Assembly: GCF_014635905.1 (NCBI RefSeq)
Contig: NZ_BMDS01000005.1
Coordinates: 1-64,000 of the forward strand
Reading direction: 5' to 3'
From: Limosilactobacillus caviae
GTDB taxonomy: Bacteria > Bacillota > Bacilli > Lactobacillales > Lactobacillaceae
DNA: 64,000 nucleotides
Made by a program: the position numbers and the translations under genes. The notes below the pieces were generated by a model. That model was not told the DNA's origin. It did no database searches and worked only from the letters and a program-made list of their open reading frames with translations. Shown here in pieces: positions 2,786-53,886 of this stretch (the stretch's first letter is position 1; the number at the start of each line of letters is the position of its first letter).

Positions 2786-3220
2786 GTGCCATACCATTTA
2801 TTTATGCTTCATCAAATGCAAACGCTGATTGATGATAAACTGATGTGGGCATTCACAATTGTTATGATTGTGGATTTAGTTACCGGTATGGTAAAACCAT
2901 ATTATGCGAAGAAAACAGCACGAAAGACTAATAGTTCTGTAGGAATACCAGGACTGATTAAGCACACAGTAATTTATTTAGTAGTAGTAATTGCTTATCC
3001 ATATCTGTTTACGATTGGTGCAAGCACAATGGCTACTACTTTTTTAATTGCATGGATTTATCAATATTTAATTTCAATTATTGAGAATTGGACGGAGATG
3101 GGTTGGTGGTTGCCTAAACCAATCATGGATTTCTTTGAAGCCAAATTGGCTAAGGATCAAGAAGATTATGATCCGTCTAAGTACAATTTCCTTGGAAAAT
3201 ATAAAGGAGGTAAGAAGTAA
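2786..3220 (+). CDS. Phage holin
   Basis: This 144-residue protein has three hydrophobic segments: ~22-36 (MWAFTIVMIVDLVTGMV), ~58-76 (HTVIYLVVVIAYPYLFTI) and ~80-98 (MATTFLIAWIYQYLISII). A charged C-terminal tail follows (DPSKYNFLGKYKGGKK). The size, the membrane segments and the position immediately before an endolysin gene (start codon overlaps this stop) support a phage holin, probably of the toxin-secretion/phage-lysis holin group. Holins permeabilise the membrane so that the lysin reaches the wall. The start is GTG behind GGGGGA. Confidence 0.85.
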   Translation: MPYHLFMLHQMQTLIDDKLMWAFTIVMIVDLVTGMVKPYYAKKTARKTNSSVGIPGLIKHTVIYLVVVIAYPYLFTIGASTMATTFLIAWIYQYLISIIENWTEMGWWLPKPIMDFFEAKLAKDQEDYDPSKYNFLGKYKGGKK

Positions 3221-4131
3221 TGCTAAAAATGGTTGATGTGTTTTCTGGAAGTCCACGTTCTTTTGCAACGCTACCAGAGACAGATATTACAATGGTTAAG
3301 GCAACGCAAGGTACAGGCTATGTCAATCCAGCTTGTAACACAGACTATGCTAATGCAAAGGCTGCTGGGAAATTATTAGGTCTGTATCACTATTGTGCTG
3401 GTGGTAATCCCATTGCAGAAGCAGATTATTTCATTAATAATATTAAGAATTACGTAGGTGAGGCAGTATTAGCTGTTGATTGGGAAGAATATCAGAATTC
3501 TAGCTGGGGTAATTATGGTTATGTACGGTAATTTGTTAATCGTGTACACGAGTTAACAGGTGCTTGGTGTATGATCTATGTATCACAATCTGAAATTCGG
3601 CAAGTTGCTAACTGTGTAAATGATTGCCCGCTGTGGGTTGCTTATTACAAGTATTCTCAACCTCTTAAATGGAATTATCAGGGTGCTGGTTTTAGCATTG
3701 CTCCTTGGGATGTATTTACTGTCCACCAATTCACTGGTTCTGACATGGACCGTAACATGGTCAACACTACCAAAGAAGGCTGGTTAAAGATGGCTAACCC
3801 GAATAATAATGTATCTATTCCAGAACCATCACCAGTTCAACCGGTGGAAGAACATAAGGAACTCAAGGAAATTTCTTTTGTTGATGATTTAGGAGATACT
3901 TGGTTTAAGGAAGACGGTAAGTTTACTCTTGATGTTGCAGTTAACCTGCGTTATGGTGCTAGAATCACATCAGATATTATTGCAACTTTACCAGCTGGTT
4001 CTACTATTAAGTATGATGCCTTTAGTCGTCACGCTGGATATGTTTGGATTCGCCAACCACGAGAGAACGGCTATGGTTACATGGCTGTCCGTGATGCTCA
4101 GACTAACCAGCCATTTGGAAAATTTGAATAA
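3220..4131 (+). pseudogene. GH25 phage endolysin with SH3-type wall-binding domain, interrupted by an in-frame TAA
   Basis: Reading through gives a 303-residue lysozyme. A GH25 catalytic domain starts at MVDVFSGSP and carries the family's VDWEE active-site pair near residue 89. It continues after the break with WVAYYKYSQP and FTVHQFTGSDMDRN, and ends in a C-terminal SH3_5-like repeat (NLRYGARITSDIIATL...GYVWIRQ). Codon 104 (3529-3531) is TAA. The frame stays open on both sides and homology-like sequence continues in the same frame, so this is a nonsense mutation (one base from CAA, GAA or AAA) and not a frameshift. The products would be a 103-residue N-terminal piece and, from an internal ATG at 3571, a 186-residue piece. 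A two-part lysin is possible but unlikely, because the cut falls within the catalytic barrel. A sequencing error cannot be excluded. Confidence 0.8.
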
Positions 4132-5279: not shown

Positions 5280-6689
5280 TTATCTACGTTGGTCGTGTAT
5301 TTTAAATGATAATAAAATAGCGACAACAATAAGTGCAATAGCAAAATAGATTCCATAGTGGAAACCATTAGTAAAACGGAGAGCAGTTGAACCAGTTGCT
5401 GTGACACTTCCCAATGCTAAGAAACTAGTAGCCAAAGCAGTAGCGAGGGCACCAATAACCTGCTGCATGGTATTCATAATCGTGCTGCCGTCACCCGATT
5501 CCATTCCTGACAAGGCATTTAAAGCACTGGTTTGTGAAGGCGACATAGCAAGGGGACAACCGATCATTAAAATGATATGAGCTACTATCATGTAAGCAAT
5601 TGAAGTACTTGGCGTGGTAAATGCTAACATCACCGTCCCAATCAAAGCAATAATAAAACCAATAATGACTGGTTTTTTAGCACCGATATTATCGTAAAGG
5701 CGGCCGGCAAATGCTGAGGTTAAAGCATTGATAACGCCACCTGGAAGCATGACGATTCCGGTTAATGCTACTGGCAGCAAGAGACCGTTTTGGTAGAACA
5801 TTGGTAAGAGGTACATCGTTGAAAGGATAATTCCAAAATCGAGCATTACTAATGATGAACCAATTGCAAATTCTGGAATCTTGAAAATTCGTAAATTTAA
5901 GATCGGATTTTCTAAATGTACTTGTCGATGAGCATATAATCCTAAAACAATAATTCCAATGATTAAGGATCCTAAGACAGGAAGTGATAACCAACCATCC
6001 CGGCTTGCAAGGCTTGCTCCGATTACGATTCCTGAACATCCAACCGCAGACTCGAGGATTGATAGGACATCAACATGTGGCTTTGTTAATTTGCCAACAT
6101 TTTCGAGGGAGGTAATTGCAAAGATTAAAGCAACTAATAGGAACGGGATGAATAACCAAAAGATCCACTGCCAGGACAACTTGGCGAGAATTAGTCCAGT
6201 TAGTGTTGGACCAATTGCAGGCGCAAACATAATTACGAGGGCACACATTCCCATTACAGCACCGATTTCTTTCGGGGGAAAAATCTGCATAGCAACAGCA
6301 AACATTAATGGCAGAATTAATCCTGTTCCAATCCCTTGAATCATTCGTCCAATTAATAAAATTGAGAAGTTATTGGCTAATGCCGAGATACAGGCACCAA
6401 TAATAAAATCAACCAAAGCAAATATGATAACTTGGCGGGTAGTAAACCACTTAGTAATAATACTTGATAACGGTAAAATGATACCGATAATTAGCATGTA
6501 GCCAGTTACTAACCACTGAATCGTTGCGGTACTAACCTGAAAAACCGCTATTAGTTTTGGCAAAGCGATATTTAATGATGTTTCGCTAAACATTCCTACA
6601 AAAGCGCCAAGTAGCATACTAACCATCGCAAGTTTTGGATGTGATACCTGTTGGCGGGCTTGTAATGCATTTTCCATAAATGAAAACAC
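5280..6689 (-). CDS. MFS drug transporter, DHA2 (EmrB/QacA-like, 14 TM)
   Basis: This 469-residue integral membrane protein has about 14 hydrophobic segments. The DHA2 hallmarks are QWLVTGYMLIIGIILPLSS in TM2, LIGRMIQGIGTGLILPLM (motif A/B region) and GAVMGMCALVIMFAPAIGPTLTGLI, the motif C antiporter signature in TM5. Such proteins export drugs or other amphipaths in exchange for protons. The gene is monocistronic, transcribed away from nrdD. A perfect 12-bp inverted repeat sits in the shared upstream region and could be an operator. The substrate is unknown. Confidence 0.85.
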   Translation of the reverse strand: MFSFMENALQARQQVSHPKLAMVSMLLGAFVGMFSETSLNIALPKLIAVFQVSTATIQWLVTGYMLIIGIILPLSSIITKWFTTRQVIIFALVDFIIGACISALANNFSILLIGRMIQGIGTGLILPLMFAVAMQIFPPKEIGAVMGMCALVIMFAPAIGPTLTGLILAKLSWQWIFWLFIPFLLVALIFAITSLENVGKLTKPHVDVLSILESAVGCSGIVIGASLASRDGWLSLPVLGSLIIGIIVLGLYAHRQVHLENPILNLRIFKIPEFAIGSSLVMLDFGIILSTMYLLPMFYQNGLLLPVALTGIVMLPGGVINALTSAFAGRLYDNIGAKKPVIIGFIIALIGTVMLAFTTPSTSIAYMIVAHIILMIGCPLAMSPSQTSALNALSGMESGDGSTIMNTMQQVIGALATALATSFLALGSVTATGSTALRFTNGFHYGIYFAIALIVVAILLSFKIHDQRR

Positions 6690-42782: not shown

Positions 42783-42794
42783 TGCCTCAGGCAG
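42783..42794. repeat. attL core of integrated element
   Basis: TGCCTCAGGCAG is repeated exactly at 53875-53886, where it forms the 3' end of a tRNA-Leu gene. The integrase gene begins 62 bp inside this copy. The two copies bound an 11.1-kb element. Confidence 0.88.
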
Positions 42795-42856: not shown

Positions 42857-43942
42857 CTATAATTGAGCCAGTTTATCAATGATTAGCGTGTCATTCTTAG
42901 CCTTGTACTCATCCACCAAATAAGAATAAGTATTTAAGGTTACAGTGATATTTGAATGTCCTAGACGTTTACTGATGGCGTATATATCGACACCTTGACT
43001 TAACAAATAGGCAACATGAACATGGCGCAAGGAATGAAAGTGAAACCCTTGCTTTTCAATACCACAGTCATTCATAATAGACCGTAAACACTTATTCAAT
43101 GCGTTACTTGTTGGAATAGTTTCTAACACGTTTTGAAACACCATAACACTGCTATTAGCTTTCAATTCAGCTAAATGATTGAGCAGTTGACGATTAACCT
43201 TAATCGTTCGCTTGCTAGATTCGGTTTTAGTTGGTTTGAAAGCTTTTTTCTTTTCATTCCACGACTTAGTGACAGAAATTGTAGCGTGTAAAAAATCTAT
43301 ATCTTTCCACGTGAGCGCCTGTATTTCGCTCTTTCTCATCCCCGTATAGATAGCCGTTAATATCATGTAACGGCTGGTATTGTAGTGATTGAGCTTCTTA
43401 TTGACTTCATTTTTCAGTGTTACTAACTCATCATGACTAAGGTATTCAACTTTGCGTTCTCGCTCTTTATTAGCTACTACTTTGACGTTATGCGTGAAGT
43501 CCTTGCTGATAATATCATCATCAATTGCATAACCAACACATGAACGGATAGCATTGTTGAGCTTGTTTACACTGTCTCTAGCATGATTAGCACCATACCA
43601 GTTAATAAAAGCTTGATAATCAGAGCGCTTGATGTCCCGTAGTCGTGTATCTTTCCAGTAGTTTTCAATGGCTTTCCGTATGACCTTATAACGGTTTTTC
43701 GTAACATCAGTAATACCATTTTCCTCATAGAGTTCATACCACCGCCAATAATACTTAGCTAGTGTCATATCTTTTAAATCAAGGTTCACTTGGTCTAACT
43801 CTGCTTCTAGTTTATTGGCTGCTTGTAGTGCTTCACGCTTTAAATTAAAACAGCCGGCTGATTTCTGGTGCCACTTTCCCTCGTTATCTTGGTAGCTTGC
43901 ATAACCGTAGTATCCTTTTTTCGCTTTTCTTACATAACTCAT
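42857..43942 (-). CDS. int: Tyrosine recombinase integrase of the satellite element
   Basis: The start is ATG 43942 (MSYVRKAKKGYYGYASYQ), with GAAAGAGGT before it; the longer frame reads through non-coding sequence. The 361-residue protein has an N-terminal AP2-like arm-binding domain (~1-50) and a SAM-like core-binding domain (~60-150). The catalytic domain has Arg in IYTGMRKSEIQAL, Lys in the beta hairpin, HxLRH in FHFHSLRHVHVAYLL, the H/W position in RLGHSNITVTL, and the nucleophile Tyr in NTYSYLVDEY. It mediates insertion at the tRNA-Leu end. Confidence 0.95.
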   Translation of the reverse strand: MSYVRKAKKGYYGYASYQDNEGKWHQKSAGCFNLKREALQAANKLEAELDQVNLDLKDMTLAKYYWRWYELYEENGITDVTKNRYKVIRKAIENYWKDTRLRDIKRSDYQAFINWYGANHARDSVNKLNNAIRSCVGYAIDDDIISKDFTHNVKVVANKERERKVEYLSHDELVTLKNEVNKKLNHYNTSRYMILTAIYTGMRKSEIQALTWKDIDFLHATISVTKSWNEKKKAFKPTKTESSKRTIKVNRQLLNHLAELKANSSVMVFQNVLETIPTSNALNKCLRSIMNDCGIEKQGFHFHSLRHVHVAYLLSQGVDIYAISKRLGHSNITVTLNTYSYLVDEYKAKNDTLIIDKLAQL

Positions 43943-43964
43943 AAAATTACCTCTTTCAATCGCA

Positions 43965-43991
43965 CAGCTTGCCAACGTGGAATATTGGAGG
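43965..43991 (+). repeat. 27-bp repeat, copy 1 (ribosome-site leader)
   Basis: CAGCTTGCCAACGTGG followed by AATATTGGAGG. A copy with one substitution and one indel is at 46766-46791, directly before a real gene, and CTTGCCAACGTGG alone recurs inverted at 53729-53741. Here the repeat is followed by a 17-codon reading frame of doubtful value (43993-44046), so its role is probably DNA-binding or a leftover leader. Confidence 0.6.
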
Positions 43992-44010
43992 TATGTATTT
44001 GAGTTTCGTA

Positions 44011-44349
44011 GCCGTATTTTCGGCCACCAAAAAGGGGATGTACTGAGCCAAGTTTTCGGCTGAGTGATATTCACTCCGTAATTTTGCTGAGCTCAATTTT
44101 GAGCCGAGTAAAGATGCGCGCAATTATGCGCAGATGTACTTACCCCAAAATTGAGGTGAGTAAGATGTCCTCAATTTTGAGGAGATATAATCAGCCGAAT
44201 TTTCGACCAGTTAAACATAGGCTCAGAATTTAGCAAATGTCCCCAAAACTGGGGAGATGTTAGCAAGGCAATTGCGTTAAAAATCAAACGCAATTTAACG
44301 CTTTTATACGCTTTGAGTGCAATTAATCATCCCCACCATTAAGGGGATG
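44011..44349. repeat. Cluster of about ten short hairpins with AATTTT-type centres
   Basis: Successive dyads lie at 44011-44024, 44046-44061, 44091-44104, 44115-44132, 44139-44164, 44168-44183, 44196-44205, 44241-44254, 44272-44293 and 44328-44349. Most have an A/T centre (AATTTT or AAAATT). The stems differ completely (e.g. GCTCA/TGAGC, TCCTCA/TGAGGA, CCCCA/TGGGG, TGCGC/GCGCA) yet stay paired. Many are followed by GAGATG, CAGATG or AAGATG. No ORF fits. The cluster fills the gap between int and the repressor gene. Confidence 0.75.
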
Positions 44350-44350
44350 A

Positions 44351-44566
44351 GATACTACATAAAACGATTAATAGTTAATGACCACTACCTCAGAAAACCT
44401 CAGATTAAACAGCTATACATTAGCTATATTCAGCTATCTATCAGCAGAAAGAAGCCAAGCACAGCAAAGGTTACAACGTAAAATGTGCAGAAAAACAGCA
44501 GATTAATTGCTACAAAATACTACATAGAACAATGACACTACCTCAGAAAACCTCAGATAAATTAGC
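44351..44566. repeat. Direct repeats with paired decamers before the repressor gene end
   Basis: A ~45-bp segment beginning ATACTACATA and ending in ACCTCAGAAAACCTCAGAT occurs twice (44352-44406 and 44516-44559). Within each copy the decamer ACCTCAGAAA/ACCTCAGAT is itself doubled with a 10-bp period (44387-44406 and 44540-44559). Between them AGCTAT repeats with an ~11-bp period (44411-44438). No gene is visible in this 280-bp stretch. Confidence 0.7.
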
Positions 44567-44629
44567 TCTCTAGTAACCCTATTTAAGTGTCTAATAACTT
44601 ATGGAAGTACGTTACACATGAAGACCCTG

Positions 44630-45058
44630 CTATAAATCCCCAGAAGGATCATAATAGTTTGGGTCAATATTATCAATTTGATTTTCTAAATCTGCCAACT
44701 TGTCTTCTGTACTATCTAAAACGATAGCAAAAGCTTCAAATAATTGTTCTCTTATTTTATCGTTTTTGGCTTTGTCATCATTAAAGTTAATCTTATTAAG
44801 AATTCTACCTATACTTTCGTAAGGATCAGTTCTTTCATAGCTCAATCCTTGAATATAGCTTGTACTTACATCGAAAAACTCTGCGAGTTTCTCCCAAATT
44901 TCATCATTAGGATTTCTCTTTTCATTTTCGTATTGGCTTAACGTATTATCCCGCATACCGACTTTTTCGCCTAGCTCTTTCAGAGTTAGGCCTTTTTCTT
45001 TTCTCAATTTTTTAATTCTGTTGTGATGTTTATAACGATAATAGGAATACTCACTCAT
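44630..45058 (-). CDS. CI/Stl-like XRE repressor without S24 domain
   Basis: This 142-residue protein has an XRE helix-turn-helix at ~12-66 (RIKKLRKEKGLTLKELGEKVGMRDNTLSQYENEKRNPNDEIWEKLAEFFDVSTSYIQGL). The acidic C-terminus has no Ala-Gly cleavage site or S24 Ser/Lys catalytic dyad. It should repress the divergent cro-like operon through three TTCACA-N4-TGTGAA operators. Lack of a self-cleavage domain fits satellites that are derepressed by a helper-phage protein and not by RecA; that step is inference. Confidence 0.88.
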   Translation of the reverse strand: MSEYSYYRYKHHNRIKKLRKEKGLTLKELGEKVGMRDNTLSQYENEKRNPNDEIWEKLAEFFDVSTSYIQGLSYERTDPYESIGRILNKINFNDDKAKNDKIREQLFEAFAIVLDSTEDKLADLENQIDNIDPNYYDPSGDL

Positions 45059-45098
45059 ATATTATCACCTTCTTTGCTCAATTAAATAATATCATTAT

Positions 45099-45170
45099 TT
45101 CACAAAACTGTGAACATTTTCATTGACATTCACATAATTGTGAATTAATATTTACTCACAGTTATGTGAA
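45099..45170. promoter_or_regulatory. Three repressor operators and the rightward promoter
   Basis: Three dyads share TTCACA-N4-TGTGAA: 45099-45114, 45129-45144 and 45155-45170 (CTCACA in the last), centred 30 and 26 bp apart. The rightward promoter is TTGACA (45123-45128), 17 bp, TAATAT (45146-45151). The middle operator fills its spacer almost exactly, so repressor binding would block polymerase. Confidence 0.88.
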
Positions 45171-45185
45171 TAGAGGTGGTATTAA

Positions 45186-45431
45186 ATGCCTATGTATTTA
45201 TCAGATAAACAAGTAACAGCTATCAAACGCAAACGTGGTGAACTTAATTTATCTACTGTAGCACTTGGGCGTGAACTCGGTTTAAGTCGATGGACGCTAG
45301 ACAACATCTTTAAGCGTAACCATCGCAAGGTAACGCCAGCAACTTATAAGAAGTTAAGTGATTGGCTTATTGACGAGTATGCAACGGCGGATATTGCAGA
45401 CAGTACAGCAGTAGCAACACAAGACAAGTAG
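45186..45431 (+). CDS. Cro-like small DNA-binding protein
   Basis: This 81-residue protein has a helix-turn-helix at ~10-60 (VTAIKRKRGELNLSTVALGRELGLSRWTLDNIFKRNHRKVTPATYKKLSDWL). It is first in the rightward operon behind GAGGTGG and so takes the Cro position opposite the repressor. Confidence 0.82.
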   Translation: MPMYLSDKQVTAIKRKRGELNLSTVALGRELGLSRWTLDNIFKRNHRKVTPATYKKLSDWLIDEYATADIADSTAVATQDK

Positions 45432-45850: not shown

Positions 45851-46465
45851 ATGAACGATTTAGTTTTCATGCACGGTCTAAATGAAGAACCATATACCAC
45901 AGATAAAATCATTGCTGAATGTAGTAATAATCAATTGAAAGTAGTTAAAAACCTAATTCGCAATCACAAACAAGATTTAGAAGAGTTCGGATTTTTGCAC
46001 TTTGAAAATGCTAAATTACCTGGACGAGGACGACCGCAAAAGACCTACCACCTTAACGAGCAACAAGCTACTTTACTAATTACCTACTTGGATAACACAC
46101 CAGAGGTCAATCAGTTTAAGAAAAATCTAGTCCGTGAGTTCTACCGTATGAGAAAAGAGCTTAATCAACGACAGATTAACCGAGCTATTGAAAAGCCACA
46201 GCGAAAATCATTAATGGACGCCGTAAAGGATTGGCCACACGTTACTCAATGGAGTTATCGCAATATGACACAGCTTTTATTGAAGCGTGCAACTGGTGGA
46301 ATGACAGCACAGCAAATTAAGAAACAAAGACACGTCAAAGTTGCGTTAGATGGTCTAACACTCAAAGAACAAGAACGATATAAGCAATTAGAAAATATCG
46401 CAATCGGTCTTGTGGGTCTCAACAAGACGTGGGACGAAGTAAAAGGCGTTTTGCTATTGGCTTAA
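45851..46465 (+). CDS. Rha-family phage regulatory protein
   Basis: This 204-residue protein matches the pRha layout: LVFMHGLNEEPYTTDKIIAECSNNQLKVVKNLIRNHKQDLEEFGFL, then GRPQKTYHLNEQQATLLITYLDNTPEVNQFKKNLVREFYRMRKEL. Rha proteins are phage regulators of the antirepressor type; the C-terminal part here is unassigned. GGGGATGG precedes the ATG. Confidence 0.85.
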   Translation: MNDLVFMHGLNEEPYTTDKIIAECSNNQLKVVKNLIRNHKQDLEEFGFLHFENAKLPGRGRPQKTYHLNEQQATLLITYLDNTPEVNQFKKNLVREFYRMRKELNQRQINRAIEKPQRKSLMDAVKDWPHVTQWSYRNMTQLLLKRATGGMTAQQIKKQRHVKVALDGLTLKEQERYKQLENIAIGLVGLNKTWDEVKGVLLLA

Positions 46466-48449: not shown

Positions 48450-48634
48450 TGAAATTGCTTCAAGCAACTAATCAAGATGGAAATTTGATATTAAATGACT
48501 TTGCGACAGGAAACGAAATTAGTAAACGAATATATTGGCGTGATAGCACCCCTTATTATCTAAGTAAAGGCGATGACTTGCTAATTCCTTTTAAGGCTAT
48601 CCGTGTAACTAATGTTTACCAAGAGGAGGATTAA
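48449..48634 (+). CDS. Unknown small protein of the element (61 aa)
   Basis: Its start codon shares a base with the previous stop. The short beta-rich protein (LLQATNQDGNLILNDFATGNEISKRIYWRD...LLIPFKAIRVTNVYQEED) precedes the initiator gene by 4 bp. Not recognised. Confidence 0.62.
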   Translation: MKLLQATNQDGNLILNDFATGNEISKRIYWRDSTPYYLSKGDDLLIPFKAIRVTNVYQEED

Positions 48635-48638
48635 AGTA

Positions 48639-49677
48639 ATGGCACAAAGAAGAATGATTAGTAAGTCAATACACCAAGACGGACGCTTTTTGACTTTATC
48701 GCCTGTAAGTAAAATTCTTTACGATGATTTAGTGCTATATGCTGATGATGATGGCTTTTGTTCTGATGTTTCTTTAATTAATTTGATGGATAAAGCAACC
48801 GCTGAAAACTATAGCGAATTGGAACAGGCGGGGCTTATTGTTAATGTTGAGGGAGTTTACTTGATTGTTGACTGGCTAAATACTCAATTATTAAATCACT
48901 ATTCTAGAACTTCTTTTCTCGATTTATCCAGTAAGGTATTTATCAGAATTGATTTTAAATACACAATAAACGCAGAAGATAGAAATATTGCCTTGCCATT
49001 AGATGATTGGGTAGAGAGAAAAAATCGCAACAGACAGATAAATCTTAAAGCCTTGCAACAACAGCGTTTGAAAGGTGTGGTAACCCAAAAGGTAACGAAC
49101 GGTAAACCTAACGTAAACAAAAAGATTACTAAAGGGTCACCTAGTATAGATAAGAATAGTATAGATAAGAGTAGACTAGAACAGTACAGTACAGCTCAGA
49201 ATAGCAAAGAAAAGATCAATAAAGAAAATAACTACAAGTATATAAATAGTTCTTCTAATGGGGGTATGGGGGAAATTCTTCTTAACGACGGCAGTTCTAC
49301 TTCCTCTATAGAGAATAATGCTACTACAGAGAATGGAGGAAACAGTGGAGAAAGAGGTGAAGTAGATAATAGAGTTAATAATCAATTAGATACTAACAAC
49401 AACCAAGATAACATTAACAGTCTATTCAACTACTTAAACGGTATATCACCTACTGACATCCCCAAAGATAATAAAAGGCTTGCTGATGTTTTTGATATGT
49501 TAATCCATCCATAACGGCTATGAAATTGAGGACATCCAATTAGGAATTGATAACATTATGAACGTTGCTAATCAAATGCCACAATATCAAAATGAACAAT
49601 CATTAGCCAAGCTATTAATACAGCACCTACCCGAGTACACCAAGCAAACATTGGAACAATCCTCTAGTAATGACTAA
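48639..49677 (+). pseudogene. Replication initiator (DnaD/phage replisome organiser-like), frameshifted near its end
   Basis: The start is ATG 48639 behind GAGGAGG. The N-terminal winged helix (ISKSIHQDGRFLTLSPVSKILYDDLVLYADDDGFC...LEQAGLIVNVEGVYLIVDW) is that of phage/plasmid replisome organisers. A long Asn/Ser linker follows, then a DnaD-like tail. At 49505-49512 the bases CCATCCAT are a 4-bp tandem duplication. The frame as it stands stops at 49514 after 292 residues. Removing one CCAT continues as LIHNGYEIEDIQLGIDNIMNVANQM and on to a stop at 49677, adding about 53 residues that look like the lost C-terminus. The truncated product may still bind the origin. Confidence 0.8.
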
Positions 49678-50627: not shown

Positions 50628-50951
50628 TTTACTCGGAGGAAAAGGAAGCAAAAAGCGTGCAATGCTTTACTAGCCCAAATGCTGATATACCAATAACTTA
50701 ACTGTAATTTTTCGTTATCAATTGCACGGAAAAGGAACTTGTATAAAGTTTGACTGCTGAAAATTCAGCCACGAAAACTCGACAGTGAAAAATATATAAC
50801 GTATTAAATTAGAACCTTGCTTATTTAAAAATAATCAGCAGTTTTAAAGCCGATAGCGTCTGTTTAATATAATTATTCATTTATGAGTTAAAACTGCTCA
50901 GACGGCTTTAAAATGGAAATTAGCATATATAGAAAAATGGAGTTGATTTAA
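50628..50951. other. Non-coding stretch with overlapping inverted repeats
   Basis: There is no gene. At 50837-50913 two dyads share the bases TTTTAA: AGCAGTTTTAA/TTAAAACTGCT and TTTTAAAGCCG/CGGCTTTAAAA. They cannot form at once, so an RNA from here could switch between two folds, just before the small ORF at 50952. Confidence 0.55.
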
Positions 50952-51942: not shown

Positions 51943-52128
51943 GTGACGAGGGCGCAAAATTGCGCTTACCCGTAAAAAAACAAGTTAACTAACTAAAGGA
52001 CGACCTAGACAACTAGACCGCCCCTTTATTTTGCACCACTCAATTATTTAATATCGTACCTTATCGAATGCACGTAAAGCAAGAAAGGTATGCATATAAA
52101 ATGCCATACTAAAAAGGCGCTTTTTTTA

Positions 52129-52643
52129 ATGCTCAGATTAAAAATGATGGCAAATGATGGCACGATGGTAGGAAATGGTAGGATAAAACATCAATATCAA
52201 AATAGCTAAATCATTTGAGATTGCATTTAATGGATGGTTGCAAATGGTAGCATAAAAAAAGAGTAGCCATCATAAGCTACCCTTGATATTGTCGAAAAAT
52301 TAACAACTTTACTTTTCACGCCCCATAGGTATTTTAGCATATTATCTTGAGTATAATTTAGTGCGCACCCTCATTAAAAAGTGTGCACACAAAAGAAAAA
52401 AGTATGCATACAAAAACGAGAAAGGTTGCACCCTATTTTGATAGCCCTTGAAAGCCTCTAGCTTTACGGTTAAAACCTAGTAAATCCTAGGATTTTATTA
52501 GTGTTAAAATGCTCAGAAATGCTCGGATTTTATAGGTATCTAATGCTTGCAAATGCTAACATTTTCTACTAGCGGATGTTGGGAAATGTTGGAGTTAAAT
52601 CGTTGAGAAATGTTAAGGTTTTAATGCTTGCAAATGCTAGCAT
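52129..52643. repeat. Array of paired decamers (about nine units)
   Basis: Each unit is two near-identical 9-mers spaced by one A, i.e. a 10-bp period: 52144 (ATGATGGCA twice), 52165 (ATGGTAGGA twice), 52234, 52474, 52509, 52543, 52576, 52600 and 52624, plus a half unit at 52129. The shared frame is A-T-n-n-T-n-G-n-A. The variable bases differ between units but are mostly the same in both halves of a unit. Units are 21 to 240 bp apart, in sequence without genes. Confidence 0.8.
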
Positions 52644-52670
52644 ATTTTTCAAATATTTTAGTATTCCTTA

Positions 52671-53874: not shown

Positions 53875-53886
53875 TGCCTCAGGCAG
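53875..53886. repeat. attR core
   Basis: TGCCTCAGGCAG, identical to 42783-42794, forms the acceptor-stem end and part of the T arm of tRNA-Leu. The gene stays intact after insertion. Confidence 0.88.

Follow-up and report, generated by a model that had tools for sequence, protein, structure and literature searches.

What is a string of short palindromes, whose arms differ from unit to unit while their pairing is kept, doing between the integrase gene and the repressor gene of a Limosilactobacillus caviae element? The string lies at 44011-44349 of the window (the whole stretch of DNA analysed, 64,000 nucleotides), and a first-pass annotation had described it as ten dyads in 340 bp with a constant A/T centre, whose kept pairing would be expected if structure, whether of DNA or of RNA, were what matters. 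From comparisons made on sequence, we put at about 0.9 the probability that the units are Rha operators, that is, predicted double-stranded DNA binding sites for phage regulators of the Rha family.

A dense array of A/T-centred dyads

Dyad density in 44011-44349 was compared with that of dinucleotide shuffles. Perfect 4-6-4 dyads with at least five A/T in the centre numbered five, against a mean of 0.41 in the shuffles, none of 1000 of which reached five, and 5-6-5 dyads with at most one mismatch numbered eight, against a mean of 1.45 (0/1000). When any centre was accepted, five perfect 4-6-4 dyads stood against a mean of 1.63 (32 of 1000 shuffles reach five) and two perfect 5-6-5 dyads against 0.42 (80 of 1000 reach two). 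The density of dyads, on which the first-pass annotation had let its reading depend, was thus higher than in the shuffles. Only one other place in the 64 kb, at 14.9-15.4 kb, holds five perfect A/T-centred dyads; A/T predominates in their arms (AAAT, ATAT, TCAC), among which there is no word of rha genes.

The number and uniformity of the dyads held up in part. Within 44011-44255 lie nine dyads and one degenerate slot, each unit built from an arm of 4-5 bp, a 6-bp A/T centre and a second arm, but 44256-44349 holds two dyads of a different kind, one near 44275 and CATCCCC...GGGGATG at 44328-44349. The centres, described as constant, are A/T-rich but vary in sequence, reading in order TATTTT, AGTTTT, AATTTT, AATTAT, AAAATT, AATTTT, AATTTT, AGAATT and AAAACT. 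The flanks of the CATCCCC...GGGGATG dyad matched rha context at 7/12 bases, no better than shuffles, and the whole at 16/26; similar dyads, not of the Rha kind, stand upstream of int in several relatives too (L013, L015, L051; L numbers denote collected loci). Repeats of the GCGTTAAA type at 44268-44300 recur in L005, L006, L056-L058, L011 and L015; in the genus they stand close to int and in further intergenic places.

Palindromes like those of the array lie inside phage rha genes

A BLAST search of the array against phages gave no match at E<=0.001. At E<=10 it gave eight records, six of them annotated as antirepressor or regulatory, the other two being an unannotated place that coincides with that record's Rha hit and a hypothetical protein, and some BLAST matches outside arrays fell inside antirepressor (rha) genes. 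The pattern GATGTNNNCAATTTTGNNNAGATG was then scanned in viral contigs, where it matched at least 120 stretches; 119 loci (L160-L278) were read, and among these listed matches 106 of 119 lay inside rha genes as read by profile, with 13 elsewhere. Complementary NNN words were present in 58 of the 65 distinct word/protein pairs tabulated (L160-L239). The palindromes sit at a like place in the rha genes, with the same words and flanks as in the array, and the Phage_pRha (PF09669) antirepressor-like family includes the proteins whose genes carry them.

For 136 distinct, profile-read Rha proteins we asked for an A/T-centred dyad with at least 4/5 pairs within 165 bases of the helix codons. Such a dyad was present in 132 of the 136 genes, perfect in 90, and perfect with the centre AATTTT or AAAATT in 77, whereas 20 rounds of dinucleotide shuffling of the same segments gave means of 59, 5 and 0 and maxima of 69, 9 and 0. 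As perfect dyads, 14 four-base words occur in rha genes.

Four phage genomes (LBR48, TMW 1.1381 P1, phiFL1A and TMW 1.46 P1) were searched for the word of their own Rha, allowing at most one mismatch, and in all four the rha gene holds a site of its own word. In LBR48 and TMW 1.46 P1 the rha site is the only mismatch-free match in the genome; in TMW 1.1381 P1 it shares its rank with two other places, and in phiFL1A it is surpassed by a place at 5374 that matches without mismatch. The centre AATTTT or AAAATT is confined, among these own-word matches, to the rha sites. A separate contig, L170, carries two Rha genes (809-1576 and 3003-3776) with the words GCTC and CCCC in opposite orientation.

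Half-site words follow residues of a putative recognition helix

One Rha (240 aa) was modelled with AlphaFold2 (mean pLDDT 79.6, pTM 0.43); the model has helices at 16-23 and 27-38 followed by strands at 47-53 and 59-65. In the model His27 starts the second helix of the N-terminal domain (27-38), on which y28, z29 and w32 are predicted to lie, in a notation where the helix reads x-H-y-z-..-w and the half-site N0-N4. Foldseek with this model gave no PDB match at E<=0.001, the ranks shown including PadR and MarR proteins, and a PDB sequence search gave one weak match, 3gcg_B (E 0.0073), over positions 120-214 only. The C-terminal domains of four phage Rha proteins scanned were ORF6C in three and ANT/KilAC in one. 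In Rha proteins one C-terminal sequence can stand behind different N-terminal domains, so that the N-terminal domain and its operator seem to be exchanged jointly.

Residue z goes with base N3 (H with C in 108/114 half-sites, N with T in 63/70, D with G in 67/68, R with C in 4/4, V with A in 2/2) and residue w with N4 (R with C in 167/174, E with G in 39/44, Q with G in 20/20, K with C in 13/16, A with T in 8/8, D with G in 2/2). At N1, y residues K (96/96), R (76/78) and Q (19/20) go with G and D with C (27/30), N1 being mixed when y is A, G or F, and x shows no more than a weak trend with N2. Thus the four-base half-site of the rha palindrome appears to follow residues of the putative recognition helix of Rha. 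The pairs of z with the opposite strand (Asp-C, His-G, Asn-A, Arg-G, Val-T) would fit ordinary major-groove chemistry.

The code was fixed on earlier loci and tried on genomes fetched later. In this held-out set, 36 distinct profile-read proteins with a site, among them homologues of the training set, 63 of 68 half-sites were correct at N3 (20,000 permutations: mean 29.4, maximum 49) and 67 of 72 at N4 (mean 37.3, maximum 61; 20,000). Because relatives inflate such counts, residues were also permuted within 24 sequence clusters, and the rule gave 226/238 at N3 against a mean of 96 and a maximum of 130, and 231/242 at N4 against a mean of 164 and a maximum of 189 (5000 permutations). A regex reader read 9 of 47 loci, with N3 correct in both arms for 6/8, and a second regex reading covered 20 loci with 30/34 half-sites correct. 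There are exceptions: at 8 of the 132 sites one arm or both depart from the N3 rule, 4 of the 136 Rha proteins are without a site, and in 3 proteins z is a residue that the code does not cover.

The same kind of palindrome occurs in other reading frames in other rha subfamilies, GTCC being encoded in different frames by the unrelated peptides DVSNFGQ, GVQNWTD and GPNLDP. The same word goes with the same z and w across frames and peptides, with the exception of one GCTC site of a two-site protein; thus DNA rather than protein seems to be what is kept.

Array units resemble captured rha segments and exchange their words

The window array uses five words of this vocabulary, GCCG, GCTC, GCGC, CCCC and CCTC, in the following units, given with their best matches to rha genes.

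44011..44024, minus strand: unit 1, GCCG-TATTTT-CGGC; best rha match 22/25 to L101
44046..44061, minus strand: unit 2, AGCCA-AGTTTT-CGGCT, GCCG type with one mismatch; 23/26 to L129 rha, flanks 12/12
44075..44090: slot 3, degenerate TCCGT-AATTTT-GCTGA, an aligned slot in relatives, uncounted as a site
44090..44105, minus strand: unit 4, AGCTC-AATTTT-GAGCC (GCTC); 23/26 to rha gene L144
44117..44132, plus strand: unit 5, CGCGC-AATTAT-GCGCA (GCGC); 24/26 to L073 rha, helix NHRD..R/K
44142..44157, minus strand: unit 6, ACCCC-AAAATT-GAGGT (mixed CCCC/CCTC); 21/26 to L143 rha, helix RHDR..R
44168..44183, plus strand: unit 7, TCCTC-AATTTT-GAGGA (CCTC); 25/26 to L232 rha (RHDN..R)
44193..44208, minus strand: unit 8, AGCCG-AATTTT-CGACC (GCCG/GTCG); 21/26 to L139 rha
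44220..44235, minus strand: unit 9, GGCTC-AGAATT-TAGCA (GCTC, decayed); best 20/26 (L228, anti)
44240..44255, plus strand: unit 10, TCCCC-AAAACT-GGGGA (CCCC); 22/26 to L076 rha (RHDH..R)
50756..50769: lone candidate dyad, dictionary word GCTG, centre AAAATT, same element
51952..51965: lone candidate dyad, dictionary word GCGC, centre AAAATT, same element

Five of the units are perfect dyads by the 4-6-4, A/T-centre and rha-word definitions and the other four are imperfect, units 2, 8 and 9 having one mismatched arm each and unit 6 a mixed word, beside the one degenerate slot. The word of unit 1, GCCG, is the one that goes with a Rha helix of z=H and w=E/D. The two lone dyads, GCTG at 50756 and GCGC at 51952, may likewise be real Rha-type sites. 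The other three Rha proteins of the window's genome have the predicted words GCGC, GCTG and ATCC, of which GCGC is in the window array, GCTG occurs as the lone dyad at 50756 only, and ATCC is nowhere in the window a perfect dyad; that only GCGC of these three is in the array argues against a simple fit to resident phages.

Of 50 genomes of the genus, three, counting that of the window, matched the array region strongly (E<=1e-57), and seven more gave short matches only. Six elements were aligned, those of the window, L061, L002, L035, L036 and L003, the L003 array being a remnant whose integrase (L031) matches over residues 9-73 only. Across them the spacers are largely conserved and the stem words change with pairing kept, as the first-pass annotation had proposed from one element; stems kept in sequence and unpaired, the pattern that it had set against its own proposal, did not occur. 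Slot 7 reads CCTC in the window, L035 and L036, GTCC in L061 and L002, and GCGC in L003; slot 5 is GCGC or GTCC across the six; slot 4 is GCTC in the window and of GCGC type in L061, L002, L035 and L036; slot 8 is GCCG/GTCG in the window and GCTG in L061; and slot 1 is of GCCG or GCGC type, some arms in these exchanges at slots 1, 4, 5, 7 and 8 having one mismatch. What replaces a valid Rha word in another element is thus again a valid Rha word, and in this way pairing survives the change of sequence. All 27 perfect dyads of the six arrays (5/5 in the window) draw on the 14-word vocabulary of rha genes, compared with 4 of 93 in the window outside its array, or 27/27 against 2 of 10 for words with at least three G/C, although the six arrays are related and the 27 are not independent events.

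Whole units match particular rha genes, codon context included, and hence look like captured rha segments. Slot 8 of L061 (GCTG) matches a rha gene of the window's own genome (L142, G000:C5:184339) at 26/26, slot 7 of L035 matches L232 rha at 26/26, slot 1 of L035 and L036 matches G000:C2:91877 at 25/26, and slot 9, decayed in the window, reads GGCTC-AATTTT-GAGCA in L035 and matches L074 at 24/26 in sense orientation. The weakest array units match at 18-20/26. Averaged over 36 distinct units, among them the CATCCCC dyad, 10.2 of the 12 flanking bases agree with rha flanks, against 7.5 for shuffled flanks, the flank match of a minority of units being unremarkable singly.

The element and its right arm

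About 11.1 kb long, the element that carries the array is bounded by the 12-bp repeat TGCCTCAGGCAG at 42783-42794 and 53875-53886, which is found at 42783 and 53875 only, the right copy inside tRNA-Leu(CAG).

42783..42794: proposed attL core, 12-bp repeat TGCCTCAGGCAG
42857..43942, minus strand: tyrosine integrase, directly downstream of the array (Pfam PF00589, PF14657; phrog_1)
44630..45058, minus strand: Cro/CI-type repressor (PF01381)
45851..46465, plus strand: the element's own diverged Rha-family protein (PF09669, 59 bits)
48612..49514, plus strand: DnaD-like helicase loader (phrog_8489)
52143..52188, plus strand: right-arm terS-site units AATGATGGCAAATGATGGCA and ATGGTAGGAAATGGTAGGATAAAA; 20/20 to L281 and L282 terS, 24/24 to L285 terS
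52376..52432, plus strand: right-arm palindromes similar to the linker region of terS in several loci; alignments, mismatches included, of up to 44 bases (L318)
52510..52645, plus strand: further doubled words matching terS; 23/23 Lj965 (L279), and 17/17 L305 and 18/19 L300 and L283, these latter matches (16.5-17) lying within shuffle scores
53875..53886: proposed attR core, second copy of the 12-bp repeat, inside tRNA-Leu(CAG)

The gene content comprises integrase, repressor, a Cro-like protein, the diverged Rha, the DnaD-like loader and small unknowns, and no structural family was found among the 15 window proteins scanned with PHROGs, some small ORFs lying outside that scan. A relative in L. 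reuteri (NZ_CP104439.1, L059; 90.6% identity over the 423-bp array query) is a separate circular record of 10,428 bp with 14 CDS, none with a structural annotation; this 10.4-kb 'plasmid' record resembles the circular form of a related satellite. An integrase with flanking attachment repeats (the proposed att cores), regulatory and replication genes in about 11.1 kb without a structural family in the 15 proteins scanned, and the circular relative together give the element the look of a PICI-like phage satellite by gene content, size and repeats. One account gives phage satellites a size of about 7-20 kb (PMC13376191).

A leader of the form CCACGCTGGCAAGCTGTGCGA stands at 43942-44010, just before the int ribosome site, and is kept with changes upstream of int in L002, L010-L017 and L033-L036, array-less relatives included. 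Sigma-70-like promoter predictions in 43900-45250 numbered 9, against 5.2 expected; none lies between the array and int, two, on the int strand, are upstream of the array where the repressor gene ends (44698-44648), and the remaining sites are all beyond 45060.

The first-pass annotation had also noted a parallel array of doubled words in the right arm, and this was borne out. In phage terS genes the counterparts of the doubled words at 52143-52645 fall at roughly one position, bases 334-356, and those of the palindromes at 52376-52432 come earlier in terS. In twenty block shuffles the best scores were 13.5-17, against 20-34 for the stronger right-arm units. A stretch of the window's own genome (G000:C5:193650-193863) also matches right-arm units. 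TerS sites inside terS are typical of pac-type packaging, and judging from these matches the right arm plausibly serves as a multi-helper array of packaging sites, for packaging by several phages. The relative L059 is without the right-arm doubled words, so that the left and right arrays are separable.

Arrays at other positions

The collected loci (2.47 Mb including overlapping pieces) were scanned for clusters of dictionary dyads, a search that used the rha-word dictionary and is thus no independent proof of it. In L172 and L221 an array separates the gene for the terminase small subunit from an HNH gene; others adjoin a capsid gene in L049, lie near an HTH gene in L014 (L. kribbianus), occur in L256 and stand beside the integrase end in L267, gene identities being by Pfam for L172, L049 and L256 and by eye from translations for L221, L014 and L267. 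The array thus has no fixed position. A single 24-kb contig comprises both L049 and L036, and words are repeated between its two arrays as well as within single arrays. L172, L221 and L049/L036 are contigs with terminase or capsid genes of their own and Rha-site arrays between such genes; they are possibly capsid-forming satellites.

What the array may do

If the units are Rha operators, the following course of events can be envisaged. The operator for each phage's Rha would lie within that phage's own rha gene, where its role would be autoregulatory, and its half-site word would be dictated by residues of the second helix of the Rha N-terminal domain. The satellite would hold near-copies of such sites, mostly with rha codons around them, for about five words. 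When a phage of matching type is active, its Rha would bind the array unit of the same word, and multiplying satellite copies would titrate Rha off the intragenic operator, upsetting the phage's control of rha. The varied positions of the arrays and the redundancy of words suit such a decoy better than they suit a promoter operator, but an element carries each word one to three times, a poor basis for titration except at high copy number; we give a multi-specific decoy about even odds as the function of the array.

Evenly balanced, too, is our judgement of the wider proposal that the Rha helix and its intragenic operator form one exchangeable cassette, and that satellites catalogue such operators, some also terS packaging-type sites, to engage many phages. 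If true, the string of hairpins becomes a decodable list of the phage kinds with which an element deals, the little-studied Rha family gains a sequence code that predicts which phages a given satellite should affect, and a single satellite can engage, disarm or ride phages of many kinds, satellites keeping lists of the regulator and packaging-type sites of several phages.

The array could alternatively be a docking place, where the Rha of a helper phage recruits a helper function or triggers excision or replication of the satellite, one unit per word widening the helper range. The diversity of words does look like 'some of each', and near-copies of several phages' terS sites in the right arm are plausibly there for exploitation. 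However, the position of the array is not conserved, no sigma-70-like promoter is predicted between it and int (the two on the int strand lie upstream of it), the absence of doubled words from L059 makes the two arrays separable, and words are repeated both within arrays and between the L036 and L049 arrays of one contig. We therefore regard docking as possible and rather unlikely.

A much less probable account is that the array belongs to the element's own int/repressor switch, as an operator region to which the element's regulators would bind. In the window, L061, L002, L035 and L036 it does lie just upstream of int, as such an account would have it, but one array holds several different words, similar arrays stand elsewhere in other contigs, and the element's own Rha gene (45851..46465) contains no perfect 5-6-5 dyad.

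It is very improbable that the array acts as RNA, be it as a hairpin array, as transcription terminators or as antisense RNA against rha mRNAs. Its strand folds strongly (z -6.9), four of the five terminator-like sites of 43900-45250 lie within it (shuffle mean 0.4 for the region), and the matches do lie in rha genes; yet a string of palindromes would fold so in any case, which makes the fold uninformative. In rha sites with one mismatch (38 of 42, an offset filter having removed the others) the mismatch was as often of A.C type as of G.T type (11 each) and lay at N0 or N1 in 31 of 38, and among the 17 mismatches in arrays 8 were A.C and 4 G.T. No excess of G.T over A.C, together with the mixed orientation of units relative to rha within arrays, points to DNA and not RNA. 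No Rfam family matched in 43800-44800, and the code ties the stems to protein residues. Antisense RNAs of antirepressor genes are known, P22 sar and P1 c4 among them; an RNA of this type was considered and rejected, the orientation being mixed and not consistently antisense and Rfam giving no match. Of the earlier suggestion that structure is what matters, the kept pairing thus stands, but the evidence favours a double-stranded DNA site of exchangeable specificity over a hairpin.

Just as improbable is a mutational by-product, in which templated correction of quasi-palindromes keeps arms paired without selection: it would give paired arm changes, but the perfect dyads in arrays are all rha words (27/27), and words co-vary with Rha residues in rha genes.

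Relation to known systems

Among the open-access literature matches listed, we found no account of an operator or a recognition code for the Rha family, or of satellite operator arrays. A likeness is offered by HK022 Roi, likewise a phage regulator with a site in its own gene, which Roi reportedly binds. Roi reportedly blocks lytic growth in IHF mutants. It differs in that its site is IHF-linked and in that no perfect 5-6-5 dyad was found near the helix codons of roi. We know of no stem code or satellite array for Roi.

As a tandem set of short phage-like sequences the array is also reminiscent of a CRISPR array, but it has no repeat-spacer order and its unit cores are palindromic and resemble protein sites. 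A CRISPR array was rejected: the units themselves vary, the direct-repeat families there are non-identical rather than identical repeats with unique spacers, and no Cas gene was found among the element's proteins scanned.

Phage satellites and PICIs offer a close setting, being small integrase-bearing elements with helper-like cis sites. Such cis sites include those of the helper cos or pac kind, whereas the present array resembles sites of regulator genes and comprises several specificities. For a Streptococcus satellite, sequences that differ from a phage cos at one position are described as putative cos sites (PMC13376191).
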